Assembly (NCBI RefSeq): GCF_026210795.1
Contig: NC_089434.1
Coordinates: forward strand, 620,001-684,000
Direction of reading: 5' to 3'
Length of the DNA stretch: 64,000 nucleotides
Origin: Rhizophagus irregularis
Taxonomy: Eukaryota > Glomeromycota > Glomeromycetes > Glomerales > Glomeraceae
The position numbers were made by a program, and so were the translations under genes. Under the pieces are notes generated by a model. It searched no databases. It saw only the letters and a list, made by a program, of their open reading frames with translations, and had not been told where the DNA came from. Position 1 is the stretch's first letter. Every line of letters starts with the position of its first letter. Of this stretch, positions 18,540 to 35,236 are shown piece by piece.

Positions 18540-19023
18540 ATTTCTTTGTAGGTAGTTCCTTTCAGCTTAAGAACTTCCAGTAAGTCTTTTTAACGTCATA
18601 TATGTTTTTTTGTTAATTGACGTTAAGTGAAAATACAGTATCTTTTTTCTTGGCCCTGAAGTTTCCTGTAATGCTATTTCTAAAGTTCTTAAGGTAGTTG
18701 TCAATTTATTGTTATTTACCTATTTTTCACGTTCTTTTGTCTTGCTAACTTCACTTCCTTCTTCAGATATGAAATTAATAAAAGTTTCGTATTGAGAATA
18801 AGGTGAGTCTTCCTTCCGTCTTATTATGTTATATTCTTTTTATTTTTAAAACAATATTAACAAGTTTAACAAGTTTCTTTTCTTTCTTTATAGATAGTGA
18901 CTTTCTTTTATTCCCTCTATTTTTTTTTCGTTCCTCTATTATTCCCTATCTTTTTTTTGTCCCTTTTCTTTTATTTATTCCTTTGTTCCTTTTTATTCCG
19001 TTTTATCTCCTTTCACTTTTAAT
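18540..19023 (+). other. Exon-like segments leading into a frame remnant
   Basis: Plus-strand segments bounded by pyrimidine-AG and GTAAG/GTGAG: 18552-18579 (TTTGTAG before, GTAAGTC after), 18767-18802 (CTTCAG before, GTGAGTC after), and one opening near 18893 after TTTATAG. The last part, 18890-19020, is a pyrimidine-rich low-complexity tract that ends in an acceptor-like TTTAATTTAG before the next feature. They may be 5' exons of that remnant. Confidence 0.35.
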
Positions 19024-19416
19024 TTAGAAGGTTTTCATAAATTTATTAATGATTGTACTTATATACCTGTTACAATTATGTTCACTTCACAACCATATGA
19101 TGGGGTACCAAGAGAAGGTGTTATAATCATTTCGAAAGAAAATTTTAAAAACATTTTGAATCCGTTTTCCCCACGGGCAAAATTTGCCATTATCAAGGAG
19201 ACCAATCCCAACTTTTGATATAGAAATAGGTTGTTGAACACTCATGATGGTGTTGGTGCTACTTCTATTGATAAAGCTTTAGAAAAACGGCCATATTTTG
19301 ACGATGAGGGGTATCTAAAGATAAATCCAAATACAAAAAAATTGGATTATCACCCATTTAACATATCAAAAAAATTGTCCATTGAAAACCGAGATACTCC
19401 TTCCGTCTATTATTAA
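19024..19416 (+). pseudogene. Unrecognised protein-coding remnant
   Basis: A plus-strand frame of about 130 codons with ordinary protein composition (EGFHKFINDC…PYDGVPREGVIIISKENF…; then THDGVGATSIDKALEKRPYF…NPNTKKLDYHPFNIS). It is interrupted once, or holds an unrecognised intron. The right half opens with ATG at 19231. I do not recognise the family. The exon-like segments just upstream suggest it was the last exon of a spliced gene. The stretch to 19798 has no further coding signal. Confidence 0.45.
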
Positions 19417-20883: not shown

Positions 20884-23247
20884 TCATTCTGTGCTACAGA
20901 ATGTTGTGCGATAAACTTTACGATTAGTTTCATTCGTCGCTTTTAAAAAAATTTCCATGGATCCGAAACGTAGAGTCAGCATCACGGGACGATTTGTTCC
21001 CAAGTGAACGTCGGGTAGATCAACATTGAACTTACCCAAGAAATTCATCTCGGGCTCATCACAATATGTTGCACTATATTTGGAAGTGTAATAAATGCAG
21101 AAGTCTATGGAGGTTTGATTTGGATAAGACGGATATAAACGCTCAGAAAATTCTTTGTCTACATCCACCTGTACTTCTTTCTCGGCCATTAAAAAAAATT
21201 TGTCGATTCTACCATTGCTATCTTTACGAGATGGTGGATCACCAGGTTGCTAGTATTAAAAATAAAAATTAATGCTGTACTCTTGCTAGACTCTTTGCTT
21301 TTTTATTTTATTGACGCTTACCCATTTAGGCGAAATTAGAACTCCATATGTCCATTTCAATACTCTAGTGCTCACTGCTTTTGTATCAAGTCCATATTCA
21401 CACGCACCACTTACAACCGCAATAACCGGACGAGGTGGGACTGTAATGAAGAACGTTTAAGCATAAATTGAATGTACTCGCTCTCCTTTTTATCAACTAC
21501 CAACAGACAACGAACATACCTGCTATTTTGATTTTGTGTTCGAATGCTTGTTTAACTCTAGTTTGAAGATATTTCGATTCGCTAAAACCTCCGACCAAAT
21601 ACATCATTGAACAATCCGGACATTTCTTCAACTGGTCCTTAATCAATTTCAAAATCTTATCGATCACTGGATCAAAAAACCCTTTTACTGTCTTAAAATC
21701 GAGATCAATAATCCAATCATCCTCACGCAGTTTATTTTTTTCAGATCCGGTAACATATTTCTTAAGAGCCGGACACTTTCTCTCAATGTCCCACTCAAAA
21801 GTTCCGAAGTCGGACTCTTCGCCAGTGAATGGAATTTTAACATGAAAACAGAATTGCTGTACCATATAATTGACCTGGCCGTAGTTTTTCTCTTTTAGCT
21901 CGTTCATCGCAGATTTACTTACTTTCTTTTCAAGAAATTCTAGAAATTTATCATCTACATAGGATCCACCGCAAAAATCTTCTGATCTCATAGTCGTTTC
22001 TCCTAACTTATTATCTGGTAATAATTTCCTAACGGTTAAATCCACGGTCCCTCCACCACAATCAACAATTAAGTATTTGGCTAAATATAAAATAATATAA
22101 TTATTTGTAAGGTTATAAAAATGAACTAAAAAAGGCTTAATAATATATACCTCCAGTTGATAACCCGTGTTCCTTTAATATACTCATACAATGAATCGCT
22201 GCTGCTTCCGCTATAAAATCAAACCGAGTATTATCAAAATATCACATGAAAATGAATTACACAGTATTTATTCTTACGTTCGGTGGTAAACTGAAGACCT
22301 AGTGTACCAATCCTTTTGATCAATCCGGCATCAAATAAGCATTTTCTCATTATTGACTTTGTTTTCTCAGAGAATCCTAAAATAATAATTTTTAATATTT
22401 GCATATATACAGTACGTTTTTATAAACTTACCAGAAGGCACGGTAACAATAATTCGCACGTGATGGTAAAAATCAACATTAGACCAACAACGTTTGATTT
22501 CATCTTTTATAACCTACGAAATCACAAAACCAACTGGTAACTTGTTCTATATAACTGGATGAGAAGTACAATGTATTTTATCGTTATACCTTTCCTAAAT
22601 AATAATAATAATAATAATAATTTTCGCCACGCAATTAATTTTTGGACCCAAAAAATCAGTGAGCATAAAAGCCGAAGGATACACAGTTAATTACCCATTT
22701 CACGAAGATAATCAGTTATTGCTCTCTCAGGAGTAATTCCATCCGGTAATTTAGGCTTTTTGCTTTCCGGGACGTCACCTAAATGAAGTTTAAACAACTC
22801 AACCGGTCTTGGTTGATTATTCTTAGCTTTTTTGGAAGGTTCGCCAGCTAGTGCCTTAGCTCCCCATGCAATAACGTCTTCATAGTCTTCGTCATATTGC
22901 AATACGGTATTTGTTTTCATAGGACCTTTAATTCCCAGCCAATTATCGTTCACTACAATTTCTATTTTCTCCTTTTCGGGTTTAATATAGGCGAAAGAAA
23001 AACCCTAGTAAAAGAATGTGACGATTGTGACGTTATCATTACTAGTTATTCGGATATTGACAAACGATAGCTTAAAAAAATTACCGAAAATGTTGTGCCA
23101 AAATCTAAGAATGAAAAAGACGATTTATTAATAAAAATAATAAATTTTGCTAATAATAATAAATAACTAAGATATTGCTTGGATTTTACCTATCCCAATA
23201 ACTACACGTGCATCCTCTACCGGAGGTTCATACTCAATTGGAATCAT
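20884..23247 (-). CDS. Hsp70-like ATPase gene E (HSPA12-type), tandem copy 1
   Basis: Ten exons: 23190-23247, 23085-23104, 22695-23004, 22590-22594, 22432-22513, 22278-22376, 22151-22210, 21520-22080, 21322-21440 and 20884-21249. They give 559 residues in frame. Hsp70/actin-fold motifs: GIDFGTTFSGF (phosphate 1), VTVPSGFSE, TTEPEAAAI, LIVDCGGGTVDL (phosphate 2) and YLVGGFSESKYLQ (adenosine). The canonical substrate-binding and lid domains are not evident; the last 120 residues form another region, as in HSPA12-like proteins. It is likely a cytosolic ATP-binding chaperone-like protein; its client is unknown. Exon 4 is only five nucleotides (GAAAG). The N terminus is ten residues shorter than in the neighbour because the upstream coding part was lost; the start is the first ATG in frame. 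Confidence 0.88.
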
Positions 23248-24183: not shown

Positions 24184-26673
24184 CTAAATTTCCGCACTAG
24201 AAAACGTCGTACGATAATCTTCGTCAGTCGTTTGATTTTTTGCTGTTGCAACAATTTCCATAGAACCGAAACATAGTGTCAATAAAACAGGGCGATTCAT
24301 TCCTAAGTGAGGATCAGGCAGTTCAATATTGAAACTACCCAATGAATTCATTTCAGGTTCATCACAATATGTTGCATCATCTTTGGAAGTATAATAGATG
24401 GTGAATTTTAGTGTAGTAGCATCTGGTTCTGGTGGACTAAAACTCTGCGAATATTCATCGGTTGCATTCACTTCTGTCCCTTTCTTAACTATTAAACTAA
24501 ATTTTTTGATTCGACCATTCGACATTTTACGATCAGGTGGATCACTGGCTTGCTGAAATTCCAAAAAAAAAAAATTAACATATTATTTTGATTTTTTTTT
24601 TTACGTTATTGCTGCTCACCCATTTAGGTGCAATTTCGACTCCATATGTCCATTTTAATACTCTCGTGCTTATGGACTTCATATTAAGCCCATATTCGCA
24701 TGCACCATTTACAACTGCAATAACTGGACGAGGTGGGACTGTGACAAATTTAAAACAAATTGAATGTTTCGTCTCTTTTTTTTATTAACCAACAAACAAT
24801 AAACATACCTGCTATTTTAATTTGGTTTTCGAAATTTTGTTTAACTCTGGATTGAAAATATTTAGACTCACTAAATCCTCCAACCAAAAACATTACTGAA
24901 CAACTCGTACATTTTTTCAACTGTTGCTCAATTAAAGTCAAGATCGACTCGATCACCTTATCAAAAAACGATTTTACAGTTTCAAAATCAAGATCAATAA
25001 TCCAATCATTTACAACTAATTCATCTCTTTGCGTTCCGTCGACGTATTTCTTGACAGCCGGGCATTTTCTATCAATATCTAATTCGTAAGTTTTGAATTC
25101 GGCTTTATCTCCAGTGAATGGTATTTTAACTTGAAAGCAAAATTGTTGCACCAAATAATTGACCTGACTGTAGTGGTTTTTCTTTAACATGTCCATAGCA
25201 GATTTACCTACTTTACTCTCAAAAAATTCTAGAAAATTTTTATCTACGTAGGATCCACCGTGATATCCACATGTACTCATTGTCATCTCTCTTAATCGGC
25301 TTTCTGATAATAACTTTCTAACGGTTAAATCTACTGTTCCCCCTCCACAATCGACAATCAAATATTTTGCTAATTAAGCCGTATTATTTAGAAAATTAAT
25401 AACAAAATAAGGTAACAATAAAAGAAGCTTAATGGCAGGGTTGCGAAAACGACGAAACATTCGTACAGTTCTGTTTCTCTTCTCCTGGATTGCACATCTG
25501 ATTAAGGAGGAACTGTACGAAAACATTTTCTAAACCCTGCTTAATGGTATATACCTCCAGTTGTTAATCCATGTTCTTCTAATGTACTCATACAATAAAT
25601 CGCTGCGGCTTCCGCTATAAAATAAAATCAAATGTCATAAGGCGATGAATTGCATGGTTTTCGGAGTTTAATTTTATTTCTTACGTTCAGTGGTAAATTG
25701 GAGACATAATGTACCAATCCTCTTAATTAAATCGGCGCCATATAAACATCGTCTCATAGTTGTTTTAGCCTCCTCAGTGAATCCTAAACATAATATTTAG
25801 TATTTCGCATATGTGTAGTACATTTTAAGAATTAACCAGATTACCGGCGGGTACAGTGACAACTATCCGTACGTGACGATAAAAATCAATATCAGGCCAA
25901 CAACGTTTAATTTCTTGTTGGATCACCTATCAAATCCAAATTACAAAAATTTATTCATGACGTATTTGAATGAAAAGAGGATATCTATTTTTATCATCAT
26001 ACCTTTCCTAGAAAAAAAAAATAATTTGTCATAAAATTAATTTTCGAACCAATTTTATACCATAAGCGTAAGAAAACACTGTTAATTACCCATTTCACGA
26101 AGGTAGTCGGTTATCGCTTTCTCAGGAGTCATTCCATCCGGTAATGTGGGTTTCTCTTCTTCTGGTACGTCTCCTAAATGAAATTTAAACAATTCGATCG
26201 GTTTTGGTGGTTGTTTATTATTTTTGTCTCTTCTGGAAGGCTCAATGGCTAACGCATTAGCTCCCCATGTGATAACATCTTCATAGTCATCGTCGTATTG
26301 TAATACAGTATTAATTTTCGCAGGACCTTTGATTCCAGGCCAATTATCATTTACTACAATATCTACTTTCCTATTTTCAGGTTTAACGAAAGCATAAGAA
26401 AAACCCTAGCGGGAAAAGTAACGTGATGTTAGTCGATTGGAGGCGAAAAAAAAAATCAAAAAACAGTAATTTCTCAATTTACCGAAAATGTTGTACCAAA
26501 ATCTAAGGTTTGGTTAATAAAAAAAATATGAAAGATTATTTTATTTATTAAGCATTGATAAAATTTTGTTAGTGTCGCTTTTTACCTATTCCAACAACTA
26601 CACGTATATCCTCTACAGGAGGTTCAAACTCAATCGGAATGCTTAGTAATGGAGTTTTTCTTGAATGAGACAT
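24184..26673 (-). CDS. Hsp70-like ATPase gene F (HSPA12-type), tandem copy 2
   Basis: Ten exons: 26586-26673, 26483-26502, 26090-26405, 26003-26007, 25845-25926, 25685-25783, 25555-25614, 24809-25369, 24620-24738 and 24184-24552. They give 572 residues. Exon lengths 2, 4, 5, 6, 7, 8 and 9 (20, 5, 82, 99, 60, 561, 119 nt) equal those of gene E, proving recent tandem duplication in the same orientation. Motifs: GIDFGTTFSGF near residue 29, VTVPAGFTE, TTEPEAAAI, VDCGGGTVDL at 229-239 and LVGGFSESKYF around 386-396. The first ATG gives MSHSRKTPLLSIPIEFEPP, with the upstream part missing from gene E. A 104-bp MITE sits in intron 7. Function as for gene E: probable ATP-dependent chaperone-like factor. 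Confidence 0.9.
25436..25539. mobile_element. hAT-type MITE in an Hsp70 intron, 104 bp
   Basis: Ends CAGGGTT…AACCCTG, with a second inverted block TCGTACAGTTC inside, flanked by the perfect 8-bp duplication CTTAATGG (25428-25435 and 25540-25547). It lies in intron 7 of gene F. Gene E lacks it at the same intron, so insertion followed the duplication (or it was lost from E). Confidence 0.9.
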
Positions 26674-27303
26674 TTTATCTATTGAAATAAGTAAATGTGC
26701 TGAAAGTATTGTATATATATTTATTTATTCATTTATTTATAAATGATATCTAGCGAATAACATACGTGACACAAATGAAGCCACAATGCTTATTTCAAAT
26801 GAAACCCCAAAAAACTTTATTTATGAGGAATAATAATTCCGAATACATACAGTGTACAATACTAATTGCTTTCTTTAATCATCCTTATATGGTTAGTTAC
26901 TTATGCTGACAAACCTGGCCGAAAAATTCGGAAAAAATTCCGATTTTATTCCGATAAAAATTACCAATTATAGTAAAAAATGTTTGATAATTCTGGCCTG
27001 GCCACGTCTTAATGCGGGCTGATCTAGGTCTACAATAATATCAGCCAAAATAATCGGAATGCATATCACGTGTGACAAAAAAAATATCAAAACAAAATTC
27101 CATTTTTATTATTTCCGTTGATGATTATCTATTATAATCTATAAGGCTGTAATGCACGTATTATTTGTACTTCCTGTGTTATTAAACAAAGTGCTAGAAC
27201 GATGAACTTTATTAATAATCAAAATCACACGCATTGATTGATGGAATTACATATATATATAGATGCGTCAGATTTTCGTTTTTAAGTTGTTTCTTCCATA
27301 AAG
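26674..27303. promoter_or_regulatory. Divergent intergenic region between Hsp70 F and the repeat-protein gene
   Basis: Both neighbouring genes start from this 630-bp gap and point away from each other. A TATA-like run ATATATATATAG lies at about 27250-27261, roughly 45 bp before the ATG at 27304. At 26910-27000 are repeated TTCGGAA/TTCCGAT blocks and the scattered motif AATTCTGGCC. A shared promoter is possible but unproved. Confidence 0.35.
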
Positions 27304-30300
27304 ATGGGCAATACAAGCACACACTTTGACGAAACCATGCAAAAGCAGGTCTTAGGGCCAATAAAATATTTAGATAAAAAGTGTTACATAATTAGTCAAG
27401 AAAATTATAAACATTCTTCCGATAAAATTTTAGGAAAGTTAAATTGCGTAAGAAGATATTATCTAATAAGCAATGAAACTTTCAAACTATATATAAACGA
27501 TCAGCAACAAAGCACCTCAGACTTACAGTGTATGCAAACGCAAGTCTTTGGTCCAATAAATTACCAAAATAAAGAGATTTATGCTTTATCTAGTTCAATT
27601 AAAGTTAAAGATAGGGTTATGGGATATGTATATATTGATGATGTTTATTACGCAATAAGTGAAGAAGCTTACGGAGAGTATCTTTTGAAAAATGATCAAA
27701 AAATAAAGCAGCAACTTCAACAATTCATGCAACAACTTGTGCGACCAATAAATTATAATAACACAGAGTTTTACGGAATTAGTAAAGAAAATTATGAATA
27801 TATTTTAGAAATAATTCCTGCAATTAAAAAAACAAAGCTGGTGGTTAATGAAGTTTATTATATAATAAGCAAAAAAAGATATGATAAGTATCTTAATATG
27901 CAAAATGAACAAATACGAAAACTCCTGCAAAAAATTGTATCAGAAAAACTTTATAAGGGTATGGAGAGTTACTTAGTTAGTGAAGATAATTATAATCACT
28001 TTGTAACGAAAATTCAAGATCTTAATAAAGGAAAGGAAGTGCGCCATGAAAAGTATTATAAAATGAATGAGGAAACTTATAATCTTTTGCAAAACATGAT
28101 AAACGGTCAACAAATTCCAGAACAGCAAGATGAATTATCATTCATGCAGCAAGAAGTCATAGGGCATTTAAATTATTTTAACAAGGATTGCTATATAATT
28201 GATAAGGAAAATTACGAGTATTTTTTCAAACTTTCAAACCAACAACCTGAAGGTCAAGTAAAGATTAAAGAAGAATATAATGTAATAAGTAAAGAAATTT
28301 ACGATGACATTCTGCAACAAATCACTTCTGGGAAGTTACAACACATGCAACGACAAATCTTGGGTCCAGTAAATTGTCTTAATGGGGAAACTTATATAAT
28401 TGGCGAAGCCTATGGGAAGGGTTTAAGTGACGAACAAATTATAAGAAAAATCAAGATAAATAAGGAATATTATATAATAGACAAAAAAGCCTACGACAAA
28501 ATTTATAATCACTTACGATTCCAACAATTCGTAGAACGACTTAATGCAAAATTAATCAATCATAATAACACAGAGGTTTATGGAATTAATAAAGAAAGTT
28601 ACAAATATATTATTTCGGAAAGAATTCCCAAGGAACTCAAGGAACAAGTCATAAGCAATAATATATCTGTTCAAGAAGATTATTACGCAATAAAAAAAGA
28701 TGTATATACTAGCTATTTTCAAAACGATCAGCAAATCCAAAATTTTATGGGACTCGTAAATGAACTTGATAAGTCTAAAGGGTATTATTTAATTTGTAAA
28801 GAAAATTATAATAAATTTTTTAGGAATATTATTATTAATAATAAAGAATTTAGACCAACAAGAATTAAAGAAGAATATATTGGAATAAATAAAGAAGTTT
28901 ACGATAAATATATTTTAAAAATCGATCGACAAAAAGACCCAACTCCAGAACAACAAGTTGAATTAATACTTCAAAATTTCACACAACGTCAAGTCTTAGG
29001 ACGGTTAAATTTTTTAGGCGAGGAGTGTTATGTAATTGATAAGGAAAATTATACTAATTTTTTAAACCAAGCTCAAGCCAACAAACAAGTAGTCATTGAG
29101 CAAGTTGTCAGACCAATAAGAATAAACGTTGATTATTATATAATAATTAAAAAAGCTTATGAATCTCGTTTAGGACCCGTCGACACTAATTCTTGCAATA
29201 GCACAAGGAGAAATGAATCAGAAGAATTAATGAACGATATTCTATCGCGAAATCAAGCGCTTGAGGAAGAGTGTAAAAAGTTAAGAATACAAAATCAAGT
29301 GTTTGAAAACGAATGTGGAAACTTGAAATCGCAAAATCAAGCGTTTGAAAATGAGTGTGGAAACTTGAAATCGCAAAATCAAGCGTTTGAAAATGAGTAT
29401 GAAAACTTGAAATCGCAAAATCAAGTGTTGAAATTGCAAAATGGAGAGTATAAAAAAAGGTGTGAAGATTTAGGAGACAAAATTACTGAATTAAGGGAAG
29501 AAGTCACCAAATATCAATCGGAATTAGGTGATGCAACATCATTTCATCTAGGAAATCAAGATTCTAATAGCACCAGCCAGCTATCAGATGATATTCGTAA
29601 GTTACATGAAAAATTAGTAAGTTTTTGTAATGTAAAGAGAGAAGTTAAAATTAATAATCGGGAGCTAAAAGAACTCATGAAAAAATATGATTGTTTACCC
29701 ACTAATGAAATAAGCAAAAACTTGATTTCTGGAGTGTTAGAACGTGCTGTGATTGAGACCATCATCGAAAAAACAGAAGCATATTTCAACTTAACAAAAA
29801 ATTCAAATGCAACAGATAAACAACAGTTGGACTTAGAAGCAGAGAATAACGAGAATCAACAGCCGTATTTAGAAGCAGAAATTTTCAATACAACTGATAA
29901 ACTGTTGACGATGACAGAATTATTTACAAAGATTCGCGTCGGAACTGATAGAGTTAGCGAAGCTATTCCAACTAAATTACGTCAGCAAGTTTATGCTATT
30001 CTTGGAAATCGTGGATTTTCCCAAACTTTTAAAGACGTAAATGACAGTAAAGAACATCAATTTATTGTGAAATTACGAGATTATATTTCGAATTTAATGA
30101 ATCGTTATCGAGAATTTAAAAATCCAGAAAGATTGAAAAAAAGTACAGAAGAGATAAATAAGATTATTAGGGAAGTTATCAATATATTTTTTTTCAGATT
30201 AAACGTACAACAACCTATCGCAACTTGGGATTGGCTTCCAAAAGGTACAATGATCAATACATTAAGAATGGAAGCATCTTGGGACGAAAATGAAACTGAT

Positions 30301-30411
30301 GATTTACGATTCGACATTTGCGCATTTCCCCTAATTGGATCCAATATTAATCAATCTAACGAGAAAGTGATAGTTCCAGCGCAAGTTGTCATGAACACTC
30401 TAGATGAATAA
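27304..30411 (+). CDS. Large tyrosine-rich repeat and coiled-coil protein, unknown function
   Basis: A single exon of 1035 codons. Residues about 10-630 hold nine tandem two-part repeats of roughly 65-70 residues. The first half resembles VLGPINYxNKExYxISKENYxxF, the second IKINxxYYIISKKxYDKYL. The halves resemble each other, so there are about 18 units of the form Y-x-I-S/D-K-E-x-Y. Residues 664-705 are three near-identical 14-residue repeats (NQAFENECGNLKSQ), within a predicted coiled coil of about 640-730. The last 170 residues form a separate domain (TELFTKIRV…RLNVQQPIATWDWLP…DLRFDICAFPLIG). No signal peptide, membrane segment or enzyme motif is visible. It may be a scaffold or adaptor. 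The lack of introns is unusual beside its neighbours. The start is the first ATG of the frame. Confidence 0.85.
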   Translation: MGNTSTHFDETMQKQVLGPIKYLDKKCYIISQENYKHSSDKILGKLNCVRRYYLISNETFKLYINDQQQSTSDLQCMQTQVFGPINYQNKEIYALSSSIKVKDRVMGYVYIDDVYYAISEEAYGEYLLKNDQKIKQQLQQFMQQLVRPINYNNTEFYGISKENYEYILEIIPAIKKTKLVVNEVYYIISKKRYDKYLNMQNEQIRKLLQKIVSEKLYKGMESYLVSEDNYNHFVTKIQDLNKGKEVRHEKYYKMNEETYNLLQNMINGQQIPEQQDELSFMQQEVIGHLNYFNKDCYIIDKENYEYFFKLSNQQPEGQVKIKEEYNVISKEIYDDILQQITSGKLQHMQRQILGPVNCLNGETYIIGEAYGKGLSDEQIIRKIKINKEYYIIDKKAYDKIYNHLRFQQFVERLNAKLINHNNTEVYGINKESYKYIISERIPKELKEQVISNNISVQEDYYAIKKDVYTSYFQNDQQIQNFMGLVNELDKSKGYYLICKENYNKFFRNIIINNKEFRPTRIKEEYIGINKEVYDKYILKIDRQKDPTPEQQVELILQNFTQRQVLGRLNFLGEECYVIDKENYTNFLNQAQANKQVVIEQVVRPIRINVDYYIIIKKAYESRLGPVDTNSCNSTRRNESEELMNDILSRNQALEEECKKLRIQNQVFENECGNLKSQNQAFENECGNLKSQNQAFENEYENLKSQNQVLKLQNGEYKKRCEDLGDKITELREEVTKYQSELGDATSFHLGNQDSNSTSQLSDDIRKLHEKLVSFCNVKREVKINNRELKELMKKYDCLPTNEISKNLISGVLERAVIETIIEKTEAYFNLTKNSNATDKQQLDLEAENNENQQPYLEAEIFNTTDKLLTMTELFTKIRVGTDRVSEAIPTKLRQQVYAILGNRGFSQTFKDVNDSKEHQFIVKLRDYISNLMNRYREFKNPERLKKSTEEINKIIREVINIFFFRLNVQQPIATWDWLPKGTMINTLRMEASWDENETDDLRFDICAFPLIGSNINQSNEKVIVPAQVVMNTLDE
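29293..29418 (+). repeat. Three 42-bp tandem repeats inside the coiled coil
   Basis: Units begin at 29293, 29335 and 29377 and are nearly identical; a truncated fourth starts at 29419. Each encodes 14 residues (two heptads) with N-Q at the start and K-S-Q at the end, so copy number can change without breaking heptad phase. Confidence 0.9.
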
Positions 30412-30829: not shown

Positions 30830-33004
30830 ATACATCAGTACATCGGGAAGTTACGGGAAAAATGTTCATCCAACCAAAATTGTATCTACAAAAAAAATCC
30901 TAAGTCAAATCAAATCGAAATACTGCACGCAAAATTGAGTAATCTAAAAGAAAAGTAAGTTCAAAGTTAAAGTTGATCAATTATTAATAAAAAAAAAGCA
31001 ATGAAAAAAATAAAAATATTAATCTTACGCTTCGTATTCTTAGAAGCCTACTGAAATTACCGTTTACTAAAAGAAGAAAACATTTTAAAATCTAAAATAA
31101 AGAAATGGTTAGTTTAAAGCCTAACCAAAGATAAAAATTCAAGACTTACCTCTATAATAGTATAATCTCACGCAAGAAACAAAATTCTAAAAGAAATAGC
31201 ATATTTAATGAATTTTGGATATAATAAATAAAAAAGAAAAAAATGAGAATTGATAAAAGCATTAAATTTTCTTATTATGTTGAGAAAGTAAAAAATCTTT
31301 TCGTAAATTAATCAAAAAATTGTTGTTTTTGCAAGACGCGTTACTTTATTATTTTTTGTACTACAAAAAAAGAACGAAATATTAATATGATAATGTTTCG
31401 ATAAAAAAATCAATGAAAAATTGAAACTCACCCATAGACACAAGGAGATCCAAGCAGCTGAAAAATCTACAAAAAAAAGAACAAAATGTTATTAAACGTT
31501 TCGTTAAAAGAAAAAAATAAAAAAAATAGTTACATTTCGAAACTCACTCAGATAATTGGAAGCAAAAACAAAACTGCCAGATTCTATAAAAAAAAAGGAA
31601 CAAGAAACGTTAGTTAACATTTCTTAAAAAAATAAAAAAAATTTAATTAAGTTTCGAATATTACCCAAGAAGCTGACCAAAATTGATTAAACAGTTACTT
31701 TACAGAAACTACAAGATCGTAGCGATGGCTTAATGCGCAGTAACTACGTTATAAATACATAGTGACCACATTATGTAATCGTAAATAAATTACATATATG
31801 CAGTTACTGCGCATTAAGCCATTGCTACGATCTCTGTAAAAGTAGTTTCTTTAAAACAAAATTACAAAAAGAATTTAAAAAAGTTTTGAAACGAAATGAA
31901 ACATTTTGAAACTTACCGATCATATCCGTTCAGGATTCGGAAAGCTCAATCTACCGGTGCCTGCAAAAAAAAGAAGAAAAAAAGGAAAGCTCAATTTACC
32001 GGTACCTGAAAAAAAAAGAAAAAAAATCAATAAATTTACTTTCAAAACTTACCAATTATATTATCAAGAATTTAGACAACTCGATTCCTGCAAAAAAAGA
32101 AGAAAAAAAAATTAAAAAAAATCAAAATAATAGAAAAAAACAAAAATAAATTTAAAAAGTTTCGAATTGAAGCAAATGCTTCAAAACTTACCAATCTATT
32201 CCAAGAGCTGACATACGAAAGAAGAAAGTCTAAGTAACGTCCATCCAGCTGAAAGTCCAAAATGTTAGCGTCTAAAGTCCAAGCCGAAGGATCAATATCT
32301 ACAGCCACCCAATTCCAACCCAGATCTTGGAACATGAACCGATATCTATAAAAAAAAGAGAAAAAAATTAAATAAGAAAATAAAAAGAAAAAAATTTATA
32401 AACATCTGTAAGTTTCTCCCGAAACCCTTACCAGATCTAAGATCCACAGCCGAACCAACGATATCTACAAAAGAGAGAAAAAATTAAATAAAAAAAAGTA
32501 AAATTTAAAAATCTTTAAGTTTCGCCTCGAAACTTACCAGATCTAAGATCCACAGTCGAACCAACCGATACCTACAAAAAAAAGGGAAAAAATTTTTTAA
32601 AAAAAAATAAAAAAAAATAATTAAAAAAAAAAACGTAAGTTTCGCCTTGAAACTTACGAAAAAGAGAATCTTTTAAATTAAAAAAAAAACAAAAAAAAAA
32701 TAAAAGAAACGTCAAAGACATTTCCTTAAAAAAAACACACACACGCCATAGTAATTATATACCTGTCTATAAAGTCCAATTCATCAATAAAAAAAGAAAA
32801 GAACATTTTGTTAGAAATTTTTTTTTAATGCATTTAAAAGAAATAAAACAAAACTTACCTTTCAAAAGTCCAGTTCGTCTAAGTTCAAAAAGCTAGTGTT
32901 CCTATAATAGAAGCGTTTACTTAGAAACGTTCTTAATACAATTAGAAAAAATAAAAATAAAAAATTTACCCTTTCAAAAGTCTAATTTCAGAAAGCCGGT
33001 GTTC
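30830..33004 (-). other. Array of about twelve exon-like segments without a frame
   Basis: On the minus strand, segments of 30-155 nt alternate with A/T-rich spacers. Each is preceded by a long T tract ending in TAG or CAG and followed by GTAAGTTT, GTAAAT or GTGAGTTT. Clear members: 32970-33004, 32859-32901, 32538-32571, 32432-32464, 32192-32345, 32053-32087, a pair at about 31910-32010, 31549-31585 and 31433-31468. Two neighbours (32538 and 32432) are near copies (TGGTTCG, CTGTGGATCTTAGATCTG), as are the pair near 31910-32010 (CACCGGTAGATTGAGCTTTCC against TACCGGTAAATTGAGC) and the first two. No reading frame runs through them. Candidate multi-exon non-coding transcript or a decayed repeat. 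Confidence 0.5.
31714..31833. mobile_element. Long-hairpin MITE, 120 bp
   Basis: Inverted ends AGATCGTAGCGATGGCTTAA and onward for 32 bp, with one mismatch, separated by a loop of about 56 bp. Adjacent DNA also shows inverted CAGAAACTAC/GTAGTTTC pieces, so the true ends may be a little wider. No target duplication was fixed. It sits between exon-like segments of the array. Confidence 0.7.
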
Positions 33005-34537: not shown

Positions 34538-35236
34538 TTATACCGCTTTACATTTACGACCAGGACGTTTTGCTGGAGGAATTCTGATAGTTTCAGCATC
34601 TTCAACACCTTTCTCATCATTAGGTGGTTGTGCTGCTTTAGTTTTACGACCAGGACGTTTTGCTGGAGGAATTCTGATAGTTTCAACGTCCTCAACACCT
34701 TTTTCATCATTAGATAGTTGTGTTATCTTACGTTTACGACCAGGACATTTTGCTGGAGGAATTCTTACAACTTCAACGTCTTCAACACCTTTTTCATCAT
34801 CAGGTGGCTGTGCTGCTTTAGTTTTACGACCAGGACATTTTGCTGGAGGAATTCTGATAGTTTCGACGTCCTCAACACCTTTTTCATCATCAGATAGCTG
34901 TGTTATCTTACGTTTACGACCAGGACGTTTTGCTGGAGGAATTCTTACAACTTCAACGTCTTCAATGGCTTCTTCTTTATCAGATGATTGTGTTATTCTA
35001 TGTTTATGGCCAGGACGTTTAGAATAAGCTGGGGAGACATCAACGGCTTCTAATAATTCTATTGTAATATATTTTATATATTTAGTTGATTACATATGTA
35101 TTAAAGAATCTATGAGCTTACTCTTACTCGGTAAAGATTTATTATTATCAAGCCTTTCCAAACTTTCTATATTCGGGCTGTTGGATACCAATAATGGTTC
35201 TGTTTGATTGGTAGTAATGTTATTAATTTGATTCAT
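34538..35236 (-). CDS. 30-residue PGRK (AT-hook-like) repeat protein or 3' exons
   Basis: Two exons: 35122-35236 (or ending at 35128 with an alternative donor) and 34538-35058, in frame, giving about 211 residues from ATG at 35236. The second exon is six tandem 30-residue units. Each has a basic KRPGRK or KCPGRK core, then an acidic DDEKGVEDVE stretch and RIPPA. Units alternate between two types (RKITQLS and TKAAQPP after the core), a 180-bp higher-order repeat. The PGRK core resembles an AT-hook, though not the canonical GRP. DNA binding in the nucleus is inferred. It may be the 3' part of the gene just upstream: no splice junction joining both frames was found, so it is listed separately. 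Confidence 0.6.

Follow-up and report, generated by a model that had tools for sequence, protein, structure and literature searches.

A nine-unit tyrosine-rich repeat protein beside an Hsp70-like gene in Rhizophagus irregularis: a possible partner of Hsp70-like ATPases

Why does a gene for a long tyrosine-rich repeat protein lie head-to-head with an Hsp70-like gene in the arbuscular mycorrhizal fungus Rhizophagus irregularis, and could the two products act together? The window, which is the whole stretch of 64,000 nucleotides analysed here (positions 620,001 to 684,000 of the forward strand of contig NC_089434.1, assembly GCF_026210795.1), was described in an earlier note as containing an intron-free gene, divergent from a duplicated Hsp70 gene, for a protein with a new repeat fold that serves as scaffold. 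The features concerned are the following.

20884–23004, minus strand: Hsp70-like gene A, tandem copy of gene B (bounds approximate, from open frames, unspliced)
24184–26673, minus strand: Hsp70-like gene B, spliced from 10 exons to 572 aa, pointing away from the repeat gene
26674–27303: head-to-head intergenic region from gene B to the repeat gene, 630 bp
27304–30411, plus strand: repeat protein gene, single exon, 1035 aa, open frame without internal stop
27346–29211, plus strand: array of nine two-part units, residues 15–636 (U1 15–79, U2 80–143, U3 144–211, U4 212–283, U5 284–350, U6 351–413, U7 414–483, U8 484–561, U9 562–636)
27733–27936, plus strand: unit U3, predicted as strand-strand-helix, strand-strand-helix, helix
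29244–29433, plus strand: 4.5 tandem copies of a 42-nt (14-aa) repeat, within the presumed coiled coil
29524–30399, plus strand: C-terminal domain of 292 aa, belonging to a family of at least 64 loci in the genome

The repeat protein and its units

The gene is indeed intron-free, with its 1035 codons in one frame, which is open from 27286, an in-frame stop being close upstream of the ATG. The paired half-repeats reported over about 620 residues are borne out as nine two-part units, the boundaries of which were set by eye, and a C-terminal domain does follow the coiled coil, which was called from the sequence and from matches to coiled-coil families in the Pfam scan. The 14-residue repeat within the coiled coil is present as well, but in 4.5 copies, somewhat above the three that had been counted. 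The protein starts with MGNTST (27304–27321), which we take to resemble an N-myristoylation signal; the likely start of a sister gene on contig C30, MEYDF, presumably does not.

Each unit is 63–78 aa long and consists of two halves that, according to the secondary structure of the U3 model, are composed of a short strand, a turn, a strand ending in Y-x-I/V/L and a helix beginning with K/E-E-x-Y. A relaxed motif, Y-x-I...-E/K-x-Y, fits 16 of the 18 half-units, U2a and U8b being the exceptions, and a related motif starts at 22 positions within residues 1–640, a count in which YY doublets can figure twice; 2000 shuffles averaged 1.0 and never exceeded 6. A hand-composed 73-aa consensus retrieves all nine units with E values from 9.5e-15 to 0.02. 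In the nine-unit alignment the identity to U3 is 29–39% and two columns, Y14 and Y42, are invariant; across two unit alignments the identity to the first-listed unit is 24–39%.

Does the unit belong to a known repeat family? The view that it is no WG, MORN, ankyrin or Sel1 repeat was upheld, as no named repeat family was matched in the libraries searched. A Pfam scan of residues 15–636 to E 10, the filters of which remove most matches above E 0.1, gave no match to WG, MORN, ankyrin, Sel1, TPR, WD40 or Kelch repeats. Moreover, the array had no convincing match in Pfam, PHROGs and NCBIfam, where matches fell mostly in the coiled coil, and no catalytic family was found in the repeat protein in these three libraries. 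The Pfam entry called TPR (PF25785, E 0.003, below its cut-off) is a nucleoprotein domain and was matched at residues 699–789, inside the coiled coil. When ten units, the nine of the window and one of the C30 gene, were scanned singly, weak and unrelated matches were obtained (best E 0.007); a Cas9_PI2 signal in four of the ten (best E 0.09) was set aside as weak. Similarly, a profile search of the PDB yielded no convincing sequence match to the array (best E 1.1).

At the level of structure, the model of U3, predicted from an alignment that included the other eight units, has a mean pLDDT of 71.7 and a pTM of 0.55, and four companion models reached pLDDT values of 64–65; a model of the full-length protein from one sequence was unusable (pLDDT 32.5). 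With this model of one unit (pLDDT 72) as Foldseek query, none of 205 matches in the PDB (E ≤ 10) reaches E 0.001, the best being 0.88, and neither does any of 442 matches in a viral library, where the best is an unnamed 198-aa protein (probability 0.96, TM 0.62 by query, E 0.13). It should be noted that a 68-residue model of intermediate confidence is no proof of a new fold, which the tyrosine-rich unit may or may not have. C2H2 zinc fingers are strand-strand-helix modules too, and the half-units of the U3 model have the same order of secondary structure. Unlike zinc fingers, the units have no conserved set of Cys and His ligands, as two cysteines and two histidines per unit are not found in the nine-unit alignment, and their invariant columns are tyrosines.

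How widely is the unit distributed? In the fungus's own genome (146.7 Mb, 32 contigs), a search with residues 1–639 at E ≤ 10 returned the protein itself alone among the matches listed, and three extra matches of the consensus (E 0.4–3.9), to an acidic repeat protein, a reverse-transcriptase-like frame and a short frame, were on reading put down to chance. The C30 gene (L002) has a single unit ahead of its coiled coil, which was read by eye and aligned. Since this unit was missed by the searches with the nine-unit array and with the composed consensus, its kinship is judged from the shared motif, from its position ahead of the coiled coil and from the sister relation of the C-terminal domains, and further diverged units elsewhere could likewise have escaped the searches. 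A genome search with the C30 unit returned its own locus alone, and no units were found outside the two genes, among the matches listed in either case. Pattern-based scans of viral contigs and searches of phages and plasmids gave no relatives except for a plasmid match to the coiled coil (E 0.1). The nine-unit array and its one-unit C30 sister probably share a unit-bearing ancestor; a tree of the units settles neither growth nor loss of the array.

Two features of the C30 sister (L002:1123-2826) may be added: its coiled-coil segment is duplicated, and its unit is followed by a short QVAGPIHHDNN that by eye looks like the start of another unit. In the window, a 105-aa frame at 18901–19218 (plus strand) contains GVIIISKENFKNIL, which is half-unit-like and may be chance.

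The C-terminal domain family and its Hsp70-like neighbours

The protein had been said to lack recognised relatives, which agrees with the present searches as regards the repeat outside the C30 gene, but holds neither for the unit in the C30 sister nor for the C-terminal ~290 aa, which belong to an undescribed family of at least 64 merged loci, 48 of them on contig C18. These loci were merged by hand from 71 rows obtained with the window domain and 70 rows obtained with a C18 member as query, row C18:930624 being omitted as probably part of a neighbouring locus, and as the own-genome search scores the best candidates alone, family sizes are lower bounds. The window domain, which is alignable along its entire length, is 55% identical to that of the C30 gene (E 4.6e-89), the nearest relative among the matches listed, and 38% identical to that of a C9 member (E 2.9e-45). 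In a 43-row tree the window and C30 genes form one clade (support 100/97), which the C9 member joins next (100/98), and clusters of near-identical members are evident in this tree.

An alignment of 30 members has seven invariant columns. In a Pfam scan of 30 members at E ≤ 1, with cut-offs given for the member in the window alone, no family was matched by more than three of them, the best match (E 0.0003) being apolipoprotein, a helical family, and the single match of a PDB profile search (E 0.06) was likewise apolipoprotein. From these Pfam and PDB searches no homologue is known that would point to Hsp70 binding. The N-terminal parts vary among the members and are mostly coiled-coil-like, some with a separate stretch that looks helical by eye. 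Five members (L033, L035, L037, L047 and L049), all within one six-row clade of the tree, have a different N-terminal stretch, which resembles W.xFMWxASL...YLFIxVW in pattern and apparently represents a second type of exchangeable N-terminus.

What are the Hsp70-like neighbours? Gene B has nine GT-AG introns and a spliced frame without stop and is thus intact. It passes the cut-off of the Pfam HSP70 family (PF00012; 26.4 versus 20.6 bits, E 2.6e-6), and its best match in the PDB is a BiP/GRP78 chain (E 2e-4); it may belong to the HSPA12-like branch of the Hsp70 family. Gene A is 75% and 68% identical to gene B over two tested exons. The divergent, duplicated Hsp70 gene of the earlier note was therefore read correctly, with gene B head-to-head to the repeat gene and the second copy at about 20.9–23.0 kb. 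In contrast to gene B, the repeat protein itself convincingly matches neither Hsp70 nor any co-chaperone family in Pfam. A search for heat-shock elements in the 630-bp intergenic region gave none, which says little at a chance expectation of 0.2 at most. On the other side of the repeat gene, an inverted repeat at 31714–31833, with 32-nt arms that are 97% complementary and separated by 56 nt, could represent a small transposable element, and a 183-aa frame at 34538–35089 (minus strand) consists of repeated segments with R/C-PGRK motifs, which look, as we assume, like AT-hook-type basic repeats.

Does such a neighbourhood recur in the genome? With exon 2 of the Hsp70-like gene as marker (117 and 116 rows merged to 119 places, 76 of them on C18), 46 of the 64 listed family loci lie no more than 5 kb from an Hsp70-like exon. 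The independent marker exon 8 (146 rows minus 20 second-part rows, leaving 126) links 45 loci at the same distance and either marker 47, so that 17 are unlinked by both, some of which are fragments or bear stops. The 46 loci divide into 21 head-to-head, 15 tail-to-tail and 10 same-strand arrangements, terms that relate the domain match to the Hsp70-like exon, as gene starts were mapped for the window pair alone. Outside C18, exon 2 links nine of 16 loci as compared to 0.12 expected and a maximum of 3 in 5000 draws, for which contigs of unestablished length were set to 4.5 Mb, and exon 8 links ten.

Contig C18 contains a 1.5-Mb array of the two families (C18:150000-1670000), with 47 of the 64 family loci and many Hsp70-like genes (L010-L048 in part); the one C18 locus outside this cluster entered no shift test. 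Within the cluster, exon 2 links 37 of 47 loci at 5 kb, whereas 5000 shifts averaged 15.5 and none went beyond 30, and exon 8 links 35 of 47, a number reached by none of 3000 shifts. The significance of the C18 linkage depends on the chosen distance: 32 versus 27 in the best shift at 3 kb, 28 versus 27 at 2.5 kb and, at 2 kb, 25 versus 25 in the best of 3000 shifts. In addition, 31 pairs of the cluster are on opposite strands, which none of 5000 strand shuffles attained (18.6 in the shuffles), and head-to-head pairs alone number 18, which 15 of 5000 shuffles attained (mean 11.5).

The partners also diverge together. For 23 of the 46 linked pairs, namely those with both sequences in hand, free of stops and of minimum lengths, a Mantel test gave r 0.54 (0 of 5000), a value slightly raised by four Hsp70-like exons that were used in two pairs each. 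The correlation was 0.49 for head-to-head pairs alone (n = 16, 0 of 5000), 0.58 for the other pairs (n = 7, 121 of 5000), 0.44 when no more than one pair was kept in every 15 kb (n = 14, 5 of 5000) and 0.53 without the window and C30 pairs (n = 21, 0 of 5000). The Hsp70-like exon at C30 is 70% identical to that of the window (next best 58%) and is the closest listed after the tandem copy; for a second exon the identity is 65% (the runner-up having 53% at full length, with up to 56% in partial matches). The nearest relative of the window's Hsp70-like gene after its tandem copy thus adjoins the C30 sister, so that the repeat gene and its neighbour both lead to the C30 locus. The orientation differs between the two, the genes being in tandem at C30 and head-to-head in the window.

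Joint function or joint duplication

How could the two genes be connected? We tentatively favour, with somewhat less than even confidence, a lineage-specific family of partners of Hsp70-like ATPases with interchangeable N-termini, represented here by a nine-unit binding array. The coiled coil and the ~290-aa C-terminal domain would be the common part of this family and the N-terminal part would differ by member. Most members adjoin Hsp70-like ATPase genes, and the pairs seem to have duplicated together, judging from position, strand bias and co-divergence in the tested pairs. It could be imagined that the partner ATPase either provides a docking site for the C-terminal domain or acts on it, that the coiled coil mediates dimerisation or higher-order oligomerisation and that the N-terminal part binds the target, in which case nine small units of predicted strand-strand-helix, strand-strand-helix structure could create a long multivalent binding surface. 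We infer a physical pairing of the C-terminal-family proteins with Hsp70-like proteins, and as block co-duplication alone could yield both linkage and co-divergence, confidence in a functional pairing is tempered.

Such co-duplication without joint function, in which the two families were copied in the same amplified blocks and the role of the repeat protein is unrelated, is the main rival, which we consider only a little less likely. C18 alone holds 48 of the 64 family loci and 76 of the 119 Hsp70-like exon places, the tree shows groups of nearly identical members, pair orientations vary and the linkage at 2 kb is equalled by the best of 3000 shifts, all of which speaks for hitchhiking; against it are the linkage of ten of the 16 loci outside C18 and a 5-kb linkage and an opposite-strand bias in the C18 cluster that exceed shifts and strand shuffles. 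The earlier note's free-standing scaffold, with array and coiled coil assembling other proteins independently of Hsp70, seems unlikely to us. A long repeat array with a coiled coil is a common scaffold layout and the lack of a catalytic family in the repeat protein is consistent with it, but the genome-wide Hsp70-like neighbourhood of the family is left unexplained, and the recurrence of this linkage favours a role as Hsp70 partner or adaptor. That the product is a drifting orphan or weakly expressed, with no selected function, would be in line with a repeat found in two genes alone among the matches listed and with strongly divergent units (24–39% identity to the first-listed one). The gene has nevertheless retained 1035 codons without stop, the motif in 16 of 18 half-units and a C-terminal domain that can be aligned over its full length, and we judge such drift very improbable.

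Comparison with known systems

If the family consists of partners of Hsp70-like ATPases as we propose, it could bear on the reported abundance of Hsp70-type proteins in Glomeromycotina, for which the available part of the source offers no specific reason (PMC8778642). Should many of these proteins pair with a diversified partner, the expansion would become a testable system, in which the matching of partner to ATPase and the binding of the N-terminal parts could be addressed, the nine-unit array being one type of target-binding end. No paper describing the pairing of the family with Hsp70-like genes was found in a literature search covering few subscription journals, and a search on repeat folds gave no paper. 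Expanded orphan families of R. irregularis, including high-copy 'Class B' genes, are described in PMC8647823. As far as the consulted sections of that paper go, 'Class B' genes are, like the present family, lineage-expanded, without known domain and partly in arrays. In contrast to the present family, neither Hsp70 pairing nor such a repeat is named for them in these sections, and 'Hsp70' and 'heat shock' are absent from the main text.

A further comparison is with the NLR-type receptors of fungi, mycorrhizal fungi among others, which according to the portion of a review at hand belong to expanded families and combine a variable, repeat-based sensor part with an ATPase component (PMC10197012). 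The present genes differ in that the ATPase is a separate Hsp70-like protein, that the repeat matches no ANK, TPR or WD40 model and that neither the repeat protein nor spliced gene B has a Pfam match to NACHT or NB-ARC. It is conceivable, though quite unlikely, that the pairs serve arbuscular mycorrhizal fungi as a two-gene system for recognition, composed of an Hsp70-like ATPase switch and a diversified adaptor, the interchangeable N-terminus of which, here a new nine-unit tyrosine-rich repeat fold, would recognise non-self or symbiotic cues. Such a system would parallel NLR receptors, but with ATPase and sensor encoded by separate, co-inherited genes.
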